Made by a program: the position numbers and the translations under genes. The notes below the pieces were generated by a model. That model was not told where the DNA came from. It ran no database searches and saw only the letters and a program-made list of their open reading frames with translations. Positions 1 through 6,272 of a stretch of DNA of 64,000 nucleotides are shown here, in pieces. Every line of letters starts with the position of its first letter. Position 1 is the stretch's first letter. Location: NCBI GenBank assembly GCA_019639135.1, contig JAHBSL010000001.1:124001-188000 (forward strand), given 5' to 3'. The DNA is from Acidobacteriota bacterium. Lineage in GTDB: Bacteria > Acidobacteriota > Blastocatellia > Pyrinomonadales > Pyrinomonadaceae.

Positions 1-302
1 GTTTCTACGAATGCCGTGACAATAGCAAGTTCCCCGCCATAAACGATGAAGGTAAAAAAAACTATGGCATCGGAGAAACTGAGGGTCAGGTTCGATCCGG
101 AAAGATCGAGTGTCATCCTCGGTGCGGCGAAGATCGCAAAGGCGAGAATGAAGATGTATCCGACTCCGATATTAGTGAACCAGGCGGCAGTCATTGATGC
201 TAAAAGCGCAAGAATGCCTATCGCCGAAACCACCATCTTAATGTGGTAAGAAGGCTCAGTGCGTGAGTGGAGTTCGGCAGTTGTGACTAACGGATTCTCC
301 AT
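1..302 (-). CDS. Partial multi-pass membrane protein (N-terminal part)
   Basis: The gene runs off the left edge; 100 codons are visible, from the ATG at 302. About 22 hydrophilic residues are followed by hydrophobic segments at roughly 23-42 and 46-60, the stretch PRMTLDLSGSNLTLSFSDA, and a further hydrophobic segment at about 80-98. A string of helices with a short PRMTL.....LSFSDA loop is reminiscent of the membrane sensor domains found at the N terminus of GGDEF or HD-GYP signalling proteins in Acidobacteriota, but the output domain lies outside the window, so that identity is a guess. The reading frame itself is clear: it is open throughout with codon use like that of its neighbours. It is transcribed away from the rest of the window. 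Confidence 0.6.
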   Translation of the reverse strand, partial: MENPLVTTAELHSRTEPSYHIKMVVSAIGILALLASMTAAWFTNIGVGYIFILAFAIFAAPRMTLDLSGSNLTLSFSDAIVFFTFIVYGGELAIVTAFVE

Positions 303-714
303 CCGGGATTGTGGAAGATTCGGATTCTCGATAAAGCTTGATTAGTTAAGGCCCAAATCACAGGCGGTATAATAATATCATCTGACCGCAAAATAATCCA
401 GAAGATAATCTTGACCGAGGTTAGTTGTGTATATCTGCTAAACAGAAAGCTGTCGTATACAAAATATACACTCCTGTAAATGCTGCAAATACTAAGGTTG
501 CATACGATTGTCTGTGTCTTCGTATATTCACTATCCGGCGTTCAAGCTATTATCCCGAACAGCGGGCGATCACAAGTGATCGAGGATAAGTGCAATGAAC
601 ACAATAGTTTACACTTCGTTGAAGGCCTAGATTAAGCAGTGGCACAACGGTTGTATTTATTCAGGCAGCGAGAGACAAATGCTCTCAACAAAAAAAGGGA
701 GAAGAGAGAAAACA
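303..714. other. Intergenic region, AT-richer than its surroundings
   Basis: There is no convincing gene in these roughly 410 bases. The region separates a leftward membrane protein from the rightward GIIIN-repeat gene, so promoters for both should lie here. The only structured element I see is a perfect palindrome CGATCAC-AA-GTGATCG at 567-582. The segment around 400-520 is clearly richer in A+T than the coding DNA around it. Confidence 0.6.
567..582. promoter_or_regulatory. 16-bp perfect palindrome, possible operator
   Basis: The sequence is CGATCAC, a two-base AA centre, then GTGATCG. It lies about 130 bases upstream of the GIIIN-repeat gene and in a divergent intergenic region. The size and symmetry are those of a dimeric repressor site, but no regulator can be named from sequence alone. 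Confidence 0.3.
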
Positions 715-1017
715 ATGAGGAACCTAAAGAACATCGCAGCAACAATCGCACTTGCCGGAATGATCATGCTTGGCACAACAGTCGCTAACGCAGGCATCAT
801 AATCAACAACGGAATTATCATCAACAATGGTGTAGGTAAAGAGACCAAAACGACCCAACAGTGCTCGGACAACTCCGAGAAGAAAGAATGGGGAATCATC
901 ATCAACAACTTCGTTGGAATTATCATCAACGACCTTGTTGGTATCATCATCAACAACGCGACTCCGCGGCAGGATTGCGGAATCATCATCGACAACGGCA
1001 TCCTCGTAATGGACTGA
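715..1017 (+). CDS. Secreted small protein with six GIII[ND][ND] repeats
   Basis: A 100-residue protein of a family I do not recognise. The start at 715 follows a purine-rich GGAGAAGAGAG site; an upstream in-frame ATG at 679 would only add a lysine-rich extension. Residues 1-26 form a typical Sec signal peptide ending in ANA, so the mature protein would begin at the first repeat. The mature part has six copies of GIIINN, GIIIND or GIIIDN, at roughly residues 27-32, 33-38, 60-65, 68-73, 76-81 and 89-94. They are separated by a charged linker with a cysteine (QQCSDN) and a second cysteine (RQDCG). The even spacing of beta-branched residues and asparagines suggests a stacked beta-strand, solenoid or amyloid-like fold, possibly closed by a disulfide; this is inference. 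The gene is followed by a strong hairpin. Confidence 0.8.
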   Translation: MRNLKNIAATIALAGMIMLGTTVANAGIIINNGIIINNGVGKETKTTQQCSDNSEKKEWGIIINNFVGIIINDLVGIIINNATPRQDCGIIIDNGILVMD

Positions 1018-1051
1018 TTTCGTTGATCAAAGAGTGTTAGCCCCACACCTT

Positions 1052-1080
1052 GAGGCGACCGTTCGTGCGACGGTCGCCTC
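1052..1080. terminator. Hairpin between convergent genes
   Basis: A 10-bp perfect stem, GAGGCGACCG paired with CGGTCGCCTC around a 9-nt loop, lies between the stop of the GIIIN-repeat gene and the stop of the convergent desulfurase. It lacks a clear T-run on the plus strand, so it may act as a bidirectional transcription barrier or as a 3'-end stabiliser. Confidence 0.55.
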
Positions 1081-1083
1081 GCC

Positions 1084-3076: not shown

Positions 3077-4237
3077 ATGGATTTTACGACAAAAGAGATC
3101 TTCAAGCGGTATGCGAGCATTCTGATCGGGAAGCCGATATCGCCGATATTTTTGAACATTCTGGTGACGAGCGTTTGCGACATGCGCTGTACGCATTGCT
3201 TTTTCACCGAGGAGCTCGATGACCGCCCGCGGAAAAAACTCCAGATGAAGACGGACGAGATCGCGAAGATCTCCGAAACGCTCGGGGGTAATTTGGGTGT
3301 GCTTGTGCTCGCCGGCGGCGAGCCGTTCACGCGGAAAGACCTCCCGGAGATCGTTCGGGCTTTCTATGAGAATAACAAGCTCGACTCGGTTTACCTGATG
3401 TCCAACGGACAGATCCATCAGCGGATCTTTCCGGATGTGACGCGTATCCTCGACGAATGCCCCGACCTTAACGTTACGGTCGCGCTCGGCATCGACGGGA
3501 TGAAGGAAGCCCACGAAAAGATCCGCCGCAAAGAGGGAAGCTGGGACAAGGCGATCCATACTGCTCGCACGCTGCAGCAGATGAAGCAGGAGCAATATCC
3601 GCGGCTTGATATCCAGACCTGTACCTGTGTGATGCACTCAAACCAGGACACGATCTTCGATTGGTATGACTTCCTGAAATACGACCTCAAGCCGGACAAG
3701 GTGAACATCAACTACATTCGCCCGCCTTCGGCAGACCCGGTAGAGCTTGAATTTGATCCAGAGAGATATGCTCAGCTTTCGCATATGATCCTTGAGGACA
3801 CGAAAAACGCCGCCCTTAAGAATATGTACGGCGGTAAATCGGGCATCTTCAAGGCAGCGGTCGATATCTACATGCACGACGTCATCACCAAGACTAAAGA
3901 AGAGAACAAGGCCCAACTTAAGTGCTACGCCGGCAGTGCCGGTGCGGTGATCTACGACACGGGTGCTCTTTCCTCCTGTGAGAACAAGGCCGACGTGCTG
4001 AATCTTCGTGATTACGAGTGGAATTTCCAGACTGCTTGGAACACGGACCTGATGAAGGCCCGGCGGAAAGAAGCCGGTGCGGGCTGCTATTGCACTCACG
4101 AATCGAACTGCTTCTATCCCTCGTTGCCGTTCAATGCAGGCCACCTCGTGAAAATCAAGAAACTCGAGCGTGACATCCGCAAGGCTGCAAAGGAATCGGG
4201 TTTTGCCGTCGGGCGTGAGGTTGCCTTAAAGGCTTAG
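3077..4237 (+). CDS. Radical SAM protein with SPASM-like C-terminal cysteines
   Basis: A 386-residue radical SAM enzyme. The [4Fe-4S] cluster that cleaves S-adenosylmethionine is bound by Cys34, Cys38 and Cys41 in CDMRCTHC; the GGEPFTR motif that contacts SAM follows at about residue 80. The C-terminal third carries further cysteines in a SPASM/twitch-like arrangement: one at LKCYAG, one at SSCEN after a DTGAL turn, then CYC and NCF. This points to auxiliary Fe-S clusters as in peptide- or sugar-modifying enzymes. The substrate is unknown. The stop is only 9 bases before the start of a diacylglycerol-type glycosyltransferase, so the two are almost certainly in one operon and may act on the same lipid or glycan. 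Confidence 0.88.
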   Translation: MDFTTKEIFKRYASILIGKPISPIFLNILVTSVCDMRCTHCFFTEELDDRPRKKLQMKTDEIAKISETLGGNLGVLVLAGGEPFTRKDLPEIVRAFYENNKLDSVYLMSNGQIHQRIFPDVTRILDECPDLNVTVALGIDGMKEAHEKIRRKEGSWDKAIHTARTLQQMKQEQYPRLDIQTCTCVMHSNQDTIFDWYDFLKYDLKPDKVNINYIRPPSADPVELEFDPERYAQLSHMILEDTKNAALKNMYGGKSGIFKAAVDIYMHDVITKTKEENKAQLKCYAGSAGAVIYDTGALSSCENKADVLNLRDYEWNFQTAWNTDLMKARRKEAGAGCYCTHESNCFYPSLPFNAGHLVKIKKLERDIRKAAKESGFAVGREVALKA

Positions 4238-4246
4238 GTTCTCGAG

Positions 4247-5431
4247 ATGCAGCAAAACACGCCAAAGATCCTCATCCTATCGTCCGACACGGGCGGCGGG
4301 CATCGCTCTGCGGCTCAGGCGTTGGTCGATGGGGTCGAGCGTTTTTGGCACGGCGAATCGGCTGCGGTTCGGGTGATAAAGGCGATCGAGGACAGCCACC
4401 ATATCACCGAGAAACTGGTCAACATCTATAATTGGGTTCTGCGGCACAAGCAGAGCTGGATGAAGTATCTCTACTGGGCAGTCAACCGGTTCCGCCCGGA
4501 AACGCGTGAGTTCTTTCACCGCCGTTGCATGGTGCACCTGCGCGATGTTTTCGAAAAATGGTGCCCGCACATCGTCGTCAGCGTTCACCCATTGACGCAG
4601 CACATCTTTGCGCGAATTCTCCGCGAACTGAATTTACTTGGCCAGATCCCATTGGTGACCGTCGTCACCGATCCCGGTTACGGCTTTTGGAAAGGCTGGG
4701 CTTGCAACGACGTTTCGCTTTACCTGGTTGCAAATGACGATGCAAAGCGTCAGTTGATCGACTACGGTGTTGAGGAAACGCGGATCAAGGTCTCGGGTAT
4801 GCCGGTCAACCCAAAGTTTCGCGAGGTGAATGAAGCGGACGCCCAGAACGCCCGGAGAGCTTTCGGGCTTGACCCTGATAAGTTCACGGTGTTCGTCAAT
4901 GCCGGCTGGGTCGGCGGCGGTAATATCCCGACGATCTTCAAGGAACTCGTCCGAGGCGAATTGGACGTTCAGGCGATATTCCTTGCCGGAAAGAACGAAA
5001 CTCTCCGTGCAGAAGCTGAAGAGATCGCCAAGCATGCGAAGTTCCCGGTAAAGGTGATCGGCTATTCCGACGAGATCGAGAAGCTGATGCATTCGGCGAA
5101 CGTGATGGTCTCAAAGCTGGGCGGCCTGACAACCTTCGAAGCCCTTGCCTGCCGGCTGCCGATCATAGCCGATGCCACCACTCCTCCGATGCCACAGGAG
5201 GCTGGAACGGTCGATCTGGTCGCCAAGAACGGTGCCGGGATCATCCTTGAGCGTTCCGTGGACATTGTCCCGGCGATCAGGTCGCTGATGGAGGATGAGA
5301 CGAAGTACAGGCGTATGAAGGACGCGACCGCATCAGTTTCGCTGCCGGATTCGACCGAGCGGATAATTCGCGAGATCGCGGCCCTTCTGCCGGCAAGACA
5401 GCCCGAGCGGGTCGAACTTGCGGCTGCCTAA
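4247..5431 (+). CDS. MGDG synthase / processive diacylglycerol glycosyltransferase-like protein
   Basis: A 394-residue GT-B glycosyltransferase. The N terminus KILILSSDTGGGHRSAAQAL is the hallmark of the monogalactosyldiacylglycerol synthase domain, where the glycine-rich loop contacts the lipid acceptor. The C-terminal half has the GT28-type donor domain, with VFVNAGWVGGGN at about residue 210, KVIGYSDEIEKLMHSANVMVSKLGGLT at 275-300 and the acidic end of the donor site shortly after. Family members transfer galactose or glucose from UDP-sugars to diacylglycerol at the inner membrane. Whether the acceptor here is diacylglycerol, a capnine-like lipid or something else cannot be told. It is co-transcribed with the radical SAM gene upstream (9-base gap), and an SDR gene follows after 91 bases. 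Confidence 0.87.
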   Translation: MQQNTPKILILSSDTGGGHRSAAQALVDGVERFWHGESAAVRVIKAIEDSHHITEKLVNIYNWVLRHKQSWMKYLYWAVNRFRPETREFFHRRCMVHLRDVFEKWCPHIVVSVHPLTQHIFARILRELNLLGQIPLVTVVTDPGYGFWKGWACNDVSLYLVANDDAKRQLIDYGVEETRIKVSGMPVNPKFREVNEADAQNARRAFGLDPDKFTVFVNAGWVGGGNIPTIFKELVRGELDVQAIFLAGKNETLRAEAEEIAKHAKFPVKVIGYSDEIEKLMHSANVMVSKLGGLTTFEALACRLPIIADATTPPMPQEAGTVDLVAKNGAGIILERSVDIVPAIRSLMEDETKYRRMKDATASVSLPDSTERIIREIAALLPARQPERVELAAA

Positions 5432-5522
5432 CACACAAATAGTTCCTTCGCTTGCCAGATAATTCCTGTTAATTTAACCTTAGACCTTTGTAACGAGCTC
5501 TTGTTCACGAGGAGAACCCTGC

Positions 5523-6272
5523 TTGAACCTTTTATTAGAAGGAAAAACCGCGTTCGTTTCCGGCGGCACCCGCGGCATCGGTGCCGCACTCTGCGAGATC
5601 TTTGCCCGCGAGGGCGCAGATGTCGCATTCAACTACCACACCAGCGATGATCTAGCCGAATCCGTCAAGGCAAAGATCGAGACCTTTGGCCGCCGGGCTC
5701 TGGCTTTCAAAGTGTCAGTTACAGACCGTCTTGGGATGAAACGTGTTGCCCGCGAGATAGCCGAGACTTGGGGCCACATCGATATCCTTGTCAACAATGC
5801 GGCGGTGAACAAGGCGGATAACTTTGCGACAACGACCGACCGGTCGTGGGATTGGGTCGTCGATACGAACGTCAACAGCCTCTTTGCTGTGACGAAGCCG
5901 ATCTATAAGCAGATGATCCGACGCAGAAGCGGAACGATCTTAAATATCACAAGCATCGGAGCGATCCGTGCACTGCCGACCGCGGTACATTACGCGACCT
6001 CAAAGGCGGCAATGATCGGTTTTACCAAGTGCCTCTCGCGGGAGGCCGCTAACTTCGGGATTACCGTTAATGCGATCGCCGCCGGAATTTTTGATACCGA
6101 TCTCGGTAACACGCTCCCGGCTCGGTTACTCGAAGCCCATGAAAACTGGGTCTCGTTACGCCGGCTGGGGCGGCCTGAAGAGCTCGCCGAATTCGCCGCT
6201 TTTATCGTAAGCCCGCGAAATTCCTATATGAACGGAGAAATAATCACCGTTGACGGTGGAACGATCACCTGA
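5523..6272 (+). CDS. SDR family oxidoreductase (FabG-like)
   Basis: A 249-residue classical short-chain dehydrogenase/reductase. The start is a TTG preceded by a good GAGGAGAA site. Cofactor-binding SGGTRGIG is at residues 13-20, the NNAA motif at 91-94, and the catalytic set is Asn116, Ser144, Tyr157 and Lys161 (YATSK). The C-terminal MNGEIITVDGGTIT pattern is typical of 3-oxoacyl-ACP reductases and related enzymes. Because the fab cluster further right lacks fabG, this could be a housekeeping reductase, but its position behind the radical SAM and glycosyltransferase genes makes a role in lipid or sugar tailoring equally plausible. Substrate unknown. Confidence 0.88.
   Translation: MNLLLEGKTAFVSGGTRGIGAALCEIFAREGADVAFNYHTSDDLAESVKAKIETFGRRALAFKVSVTDRLGMKRVAREIAETWGHIDILVNNAAVNKADNFATTTDRSWDWVVDTNVNSLFAVTKPIYKQMIRRRSGTILNITSIGAIRALPTAVHYATSKAAMIGFTKCLSREAANFGITVNAIAAGIFDTDLGNTLPARLLEAHENWVSLRRLGRPEELAEFAAFIVSPRNSYMNGEIITVDGGTIT

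Follow-up and report, generated by a model that had tools for sequence, protein, structure and literature searches.

A single-copy gene family of Acidobacteriota encoding matching hexapeptide units, a candidate precursor of a short peptide signal

The gene at 715-1017 of the window (the whole stretch of 64,000 nucleotides that was analysed) belongs to a single-copy gene family that is nearly confined to one Acidobacteriota family. Its proteins carry several matching copies of a hydrophobic peptide roughly six residues long (GIII-[ND]-[ND] in this gene). The explanation we favour, tentatively and at slightly below an even chance, is that the protein is a multi-copy precursor and that the short peptide would be its working product. 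Signalling by short peptides has been described chiefly in Firmicutes, and the finding, if true, would extend it to Acidobacteriota, a large and little-studied Gram-negative phylum. The matching copies reveal the peptide sequence of each species directly, so that synthetic peptides could be tested at once. The full picture would be a Gram-negative phylum with a multi-copy hexapeptide pheromone, having up to seven species-specific copies per exported precursor, a private sigma-54 activator, a GGDEF-EAL receptor and, in some lineages, bare 8-codon ORFs; taken as a whole, we consider it doubtful. The features of the region are as follows.

1-302, minus strand: first part of the divergently encoded GGDEF-EAL membrane protein of 767-768 aa (assigned by Pfam), the rest lying beyond the window
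428-444, no strand: predicted operator 1, palindrome TGTATATCTGCTAAACA
454-470, no strand: predicted operator 2, palindrome CGTATACAAAATATACA
521-537, no strand: third operator-like site, weak, CGTATATTCACTATCCG; scored by eye at 9 of 12, under the threshold
640-657, plus strand: sigma-54-like promoter TGGCACAACGGTTGTATT, 75 nt ahead of the ATG
715-1017, plus strand: multi-copy hexapeptide gene, 100 aa, ATG to TGA, from translation and homologues
715-792, plus strand: predicted Sec-type signal peptide, residues 1-26, ending ...TTVANA before G; read from the sequence, recurring in most homologues
793-828, plus strand: units 1-2, GIIINN (793-810) and GIIINN (811-828)
862-864, plus strand: conserved Cys 50, an invariant column of the 23-member alignment
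892-957, plus strand: units 3-5, GIIINN-FV-GIIIND-LV-GIIINN (892-909, 916-933, 940-957), at 8-residue spacing
976-978, plus strand: conserved Cys 88, immediately ahead of unit 6, an invariant column of the 23-member alignment
979-1014, plus strand: units 6-7, GIIIDN and GILVMD, the last flush with the C-terminus
1051-1081, plus strand: 3' hairpin, -29.1 kcal/mol, z -3.0, folding better than its shuffles

The first-pass annotation had described six GIII[ND][ND] units in a 74-aa mature chain with two cysteines. The translation agreed with this, residues 1-26 being the leader and the cysteines lying at 50 and 88, and it added a diverged seventh unit, GILVMD. The signal peptide and its cleavage site between ANA and G were called by reading the sequence. 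The pattern GGNATHATHATHRAYRAY occurred 6 times in the window, all within this ORF, against 0.01 expected from shuffles, and the whole 4.09 Mb genome gave the same 6 matches in this ORF only; a second gene with the hexamer motif, such as a partner, was not found in the genome. The ribosome site, signal peptide and hairpin that had been offered as marks of a real gene were all present, although the Shine-Dalgarno-like GGGAGAAGAGAG stands slightly far from the ATG and the T run after the hairpin is only weak. A search of 250-1150 for riboswitches and known RNAs gave nothing above gathering score.

The protein search proposed in that annotation found homologues with the repeat in related genomes, with matches in 28 of 98 genomes drawn from the own genome, its genus, family and class, and the existence of these homologues makes 715-1017 a real gene. 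A family profile was built from 23 members, and its search of the order matched 53 of 119 genomes with one match each; within the own genus it matched 36 of 41 genomes. When the phylum was sampled evenly, 21 of 396 genomes matched, 20 of them from the same family as the window genome; the 21st match was weak and lay inside a 1361-aa frame. Two of the 53 profile hits were not counted as members (G044, where the match lies inside a 992-aa frame, and G118, which is RiPP-like and has no promoter), while G008, G058 and G120 were added by reading the slot beside the neighbour gene, which brought the count to 54 of 119. The sole named record among the family matches was an Acidobacteria metagenome bin (L029). 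Profile searches of Pfam, NCBIfam, PADLOC and PDB gave no credible match to the family, the NCBIfam precursor families gave none with a meaningful E-value, and literature searches directed at this family or at Acidobacteria turned up no description of it; it thus stands as the undescribed family that it had been taken for.

A typical member starts with a Sec-type leader and goes on with one or two units and a hydrophilic linker containing a Cys; three or four units then follow at intervals that are mostly 7-9 residues long (commonest 8), with a Cys near the last unit, which ends the chain. The leader and the two Cys are kept in most members, and the 23-member alignment has no variation at either Cys or at several Gly. 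Unit statistics were taken from 46 of the 53 loci, leaving out G044, G118 and the truncated or degenerate G004, G016, G036, G102 and G116; of these 46 members, 39 end flush with their last unit.

The copies were far more alike within a protein than between genomes. Unit identity was 0.81 within a protein versus 0.53 between genomes (maximum of 1000 shuffles, 0.561), and at positions 5-6 of the unit it was 0.68 versus 0.23. All copies were identical in 13 of the 46 members, and those 64 copies were written in 62 DNA versions. The sister genomes G017 and G003 showed an I/L difference at the same position of three units while the synonymous codons largely remained unit-specific, and G000 differed from G019 and G031 in the same manner, most units having an N/D exchange at position 5. 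When the main hexamers of 37 genomes, 25 states in all, were placed on a tree built from the GGDEF-EAL part of the neighbour, 27 changes were required. Such a match at the protein level despite differing DNA shows that selection holds the peptide copy by copy: it keeps the copies alike within a protein while their shared sequence drifts between species. Codon sharing among identical copies was 0.55 versus 0.38 expected from long frames of the same loci (1473 of 2667 versus 1037 expected over all loci), and it was near expectation in several genes (G039, G012, G035); the excess points to some DNA-level homogenisation or codon bias as well. The residue preceding the unit was T in 69, D in 46, A in 27 and C in 21 of 241 units, with others in the rest, and no conserved protease site was found before these 241 units.

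Three further forms, each read from the sequence of a single genome, bear on what the product may be. The slot of G058, next to the same neighbour, holds two tandem 8-codon ORFs, each encoding MKGIIVVG behind a strong ribosome site, and it keeps the promoter and weaker operators at the usual places. A terminator after these mini-ORFs was unsupported (z -0.8), and no further mini-ORF of the MKGIIVVG type was found in 1.19 Mb of loci scanned, both strands counted. G008 has two tandem leaderless genes with GIIVSDFSR-type arrays, and G120 has a variant with a signal and GIVT units. The bare and leaderless forms suggest that the short peptide, and not a folded repeat protein, is probably the product, and a large folded repeat structure appears unlikely as the essential product. 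The missing leader in G058 and G008 also raises the question of the peptide's route out of the cell.

The control region is conserved together with the gene. The TGGCAC-N5-TTG[TA] element scored at least 10 of 12 upstream in 48 of 53 loci, compared with 0.75% of control windows. The usual sigma-54 -12 element is TTGC; the -12 part here, TTG[TA], lacks the usual C, and for this reason we only infer the sigma factor. With the promoter in 48 of 53 loci, upstream sites in 42 of those 48 and RpoN present in the genome, the gene would be sigma-54-controlled. The strict element occurred at 37 sites in the 41 genus genomes, and the reversed pattern at 0. The peptide gene accounted for 19 of these sites; of the 18 that remain, 14 were read, 8 of which stand ahead of a type IV pilin. 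Another site lies ahead of a pilin in the own genome. Type IV pilins with the same TGGCAC-N5-TTG[TA]A element were seen at L139 and at L158, L161, L164, L170, L179, L180, L183 and L184. The element was also observed in the own genome about 87 nt ahead of a signal-bearing, subtilisin-type-protease-like protein with a propeptide (L141), which is a possible candidate for the processing enzyme, and in two genomes ahead of a small hydrophobic protein, MLETIIVI..LL.WL.GM (L155, L162).

Of 48 loci, 42 had palindromes of the form TGTATA-N5-TATACA near -212, -186 and -118 from the promoter, 89 sites in all, while controls had 0.002 per window. The weak site CGTATATTCACTATCCG of the window lies at -118/-119, where many relatives carry a site. 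With one mismatch allowed, the own genome had 0 such palindromes elsewhere, none was present at the nine pilin promoters examined, and in G007 and G025, which lack the neighbour or have it unlinked, the operators remain at the peptide gene. The own genome contains 18 strong matches to sigma-54 activators. Promoter and operators can be read directly as sequence, and since the operators are private to the locus, the simplest reading is that one dedicated activator controls the peptide gene, possibly the divergent GGDEF-EAL gene too.

The divergent neighbour is a candidate partner. The GGDEF-EAL cluster was present at 43 of 53 loci, nearly always divergent and adjoining the peptide gene, with a prolyl oligopeptidase beyond it at 31 loci and a cysteine desulfurase downstream of the peptide gene at 39. 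The cut for the GGDEF-EAL type was placed in an E-value gap from 1.7e-31 to 9e-25 and includes some paralogues; by this cut the type occurred in 55 of 119 genomes, with both genes in 51, GGDEF-EAL alone in 4 (two at contig ends) and the peptide gene alone in 3. The GGDEF-EAL gene is not beside the peptide gene in G007, G025, G104 and G111, and it is present without a peptide gene in G015. At L138 (G007), no GGDEF-EAL gene lies between the prolyl oligopeptidase and the peptide gene, and the peptide gene and its operators are kept. Synteny is general in this neighbourhood, which makes linkage by itself weak evidence, and with some paralogues inside the cut the co-occurrence gives support, not proof.

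The sensor half of the GGDEF-EAL protein evolves faster than the GGDEF-EAL part (mean distance 0.60 versus 0.32). Co-evolution of hexamer and sensor was not specific (partial r 0.20 for the sensor given GGDEF-EAL and 0.19 reversed), and among four neighbours compared with hexamer distance only the prolyl oligopeptidase reached p 0.02, uncorrected. This sensor part, of about 260 residues and multiple helices, matched no Pfam family and was found in 106 of the 119 order genomes, often as several paralogues. The neighbours scanned were the GGDEF-EAL protein, the prolyl oligopeptidase, a Trans_reg_C-TPR protein, the cysteine desulfurase, a radical SAM protein, a glycosyltransferase and an SDR; no RRNPPA-type (Rgg/RopB) receptor was found among them, and none of the neighbours tested carried the hexamer core of the genome to which it belongs. 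The last three form a block at 3077-6272 of the window (radical SAM/SPASM-like, diacylglycerol-glucosyltransferase-like and SDR), whose parts recur in the vicinity of the peptide gene at 26, 18 and 12 of 53 loci, respectively.

Taken together, the family has one gene per genome, with multiple matching units in each protein and mostly a Sec-type leader; selection conserves the peptide under differing codons, and the slot of one relative holds only two MKGIIVVG ORFs, that of another leaderless arrays. All this fits a peptide precursor. Trimming of the exported precursor would yield peptides that serve as a species-specific self-signal. More speculatively, the divergent membrane GGDEF-EAL protein might read this signal and alter cyclic di-GMP, and a link to pili or surface life might be considered because pilins have the same promoter type.

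The main rival is a functional amyloid or surface-active coat, chaplin- or curli-like, in which identical glycine-bounded beta segments would stack extracellularly and matching copies would stack best. We consider it unlikely, yet of some weight: the exported chain is short (74 aa) with two Cys and hydrophobic, beta-prone segments, the match within a species and drift between species are what homotypic stacking demands, the pilin-type promoter and the cyclic di-GMP enzyme next door fit biofilm use, and an 8-mer such as MKGIIVVG could perhaps form fibrils itself. On the other hand, neither the window protein nor the 23 members matched Pfam curlin or chaplin, the leaderless and bare-peptide forms of two relatives would act in the cytoplasm, and CsgA-type repeats are termed imperfect repeats in the source excerpts used, unlike the hexapeptide copies. 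The first-pass annotation had itself suggested stacked strands, a solenoid or amyloid, for which no measurement speaks in favour; an AlphaFold2 model of the window protein and the L029 protein (two-sequence alignment, pLDDT 31, pTM 0.17) says nothing either way. The Asn/Asp ladder suggested with it was not retained as a family feature, the relatives having AG, GG, TD, SD, TG, AK, VG and others there.

A RiPP or bacteriocin-like precursor, whose repeated cores would be modified by enzymes from other loci and set free as bioactive peptides, seems rather improbable to us. The plain Sec leader of most members and the NCBIfam precursor families, which gave no match with a meaningful E-value, count against it. 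A radical SAM/SPASM-like gene does lie 2 kb downstream in the window, and its cluster is present at 26 of 53 loci, but it stays far below every NCBIfam cut-off shown (best 57.9 versus 425), and a gene of housekeeping type, the cysteine desulfurase, shares its synteny. The non-orthologous precursor of G118, whose KGILVGD cores adjoin a radical SAM C-methyltransferase, lends this reading some support. An intracellular or periplasmic regulatory peptide that binds the cell's own protease, chaperone or membrane protein, with no cell-to-cell role, is quite improbable in our view: the leaderless forms of G008 and G058 need no export and the flush C-terminal unit (39 of 46) looks as if a free end were read, whereas most members keep the Sec-type leader and two Cys, and the own genome has no second motif-bearing gene. 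Hardly credible is an ordinary low-complexity repeat maintained by slippage or gene conversion, its unit having no specific role. The codon sharing of 0.55 versus 0.38 would suit it, but 64 identical copies in 62 DNA versions and parallel changes with synonymous marks preserved contradict it, and the conservation of promoter, operators and Cys speaks against it as well.

At G118, a leaderless precursor (L117:4818-5003) ends at its C-terminus in three KG[IL][LI][VI]GD cores, with a methyltransferase-like gene upstream and the radical SAM C-methyltransferase TIGR03975 (616 bits versus a cut-off of 282) at L117:5146-7047. This locus is probably a RiPP cluster with look-alike cores and not an orthologue. 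Its repeated KG-[IL]-[LI]-[VI]-G-D cores resemble the family's units, and the one such locus seen differs in its hydrophilic non-Sec leader, its linked maturase and the lack of a sigma-54-like site. Chaplins carry two Cys, and chaplins and curli CsgA, as far as the source excerpts describe them, are likewise small exported proteins with hydrophobic repeats; the present family differs in having no match to those families, far stricter unit identity and bare 8-mer forms. Yeast alpha-factor type precursors are exported and contain several identical short peptides per chain, as here, but here no processing signal, dibasic or dipeptide, is conserved between the copies, and the sequences are unrelated as far as known.

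The closest likeness is to the SIP/RopB and SHP/Rgg systems of Firmicutes. In the portion of PMC10518010 used here, the leaderless communication peptides of Firmicutes are hydrophobic, mostly 8-10 aa in length and species-specific in their codes, and RopB binds the promoter that drives its own peptide gene. Within what that portion covers, the likenesses are short hydrophobic peptides of species-specific sequence, their two kinds of source, a bare 8-codon ORF or a longer propeptide that bears a secretion signal, and a candidate regulator encoded beside the peptide gene. The promoter-side operators described above are compatible, and only compatible, with peptide feedback on its own promoter. 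Measured against the same portion, the present family differs in its occurrence in Acidobacteriota, in several copies per precursor, in a Sec leader with two Cys, in a sigma-54-like promoter with private operators, in a neighbour that is a membrane GGDEF-EAL protein and not a cytosolic RRNPPA regulator, and in being known from sequence alone. Because no linked RRNPPA receptor was found among the neighbours, the family is not a member of the Firmicute system as described there, but by analogy it appears to work most like these short hydrophobic and leaderless communication peptides.
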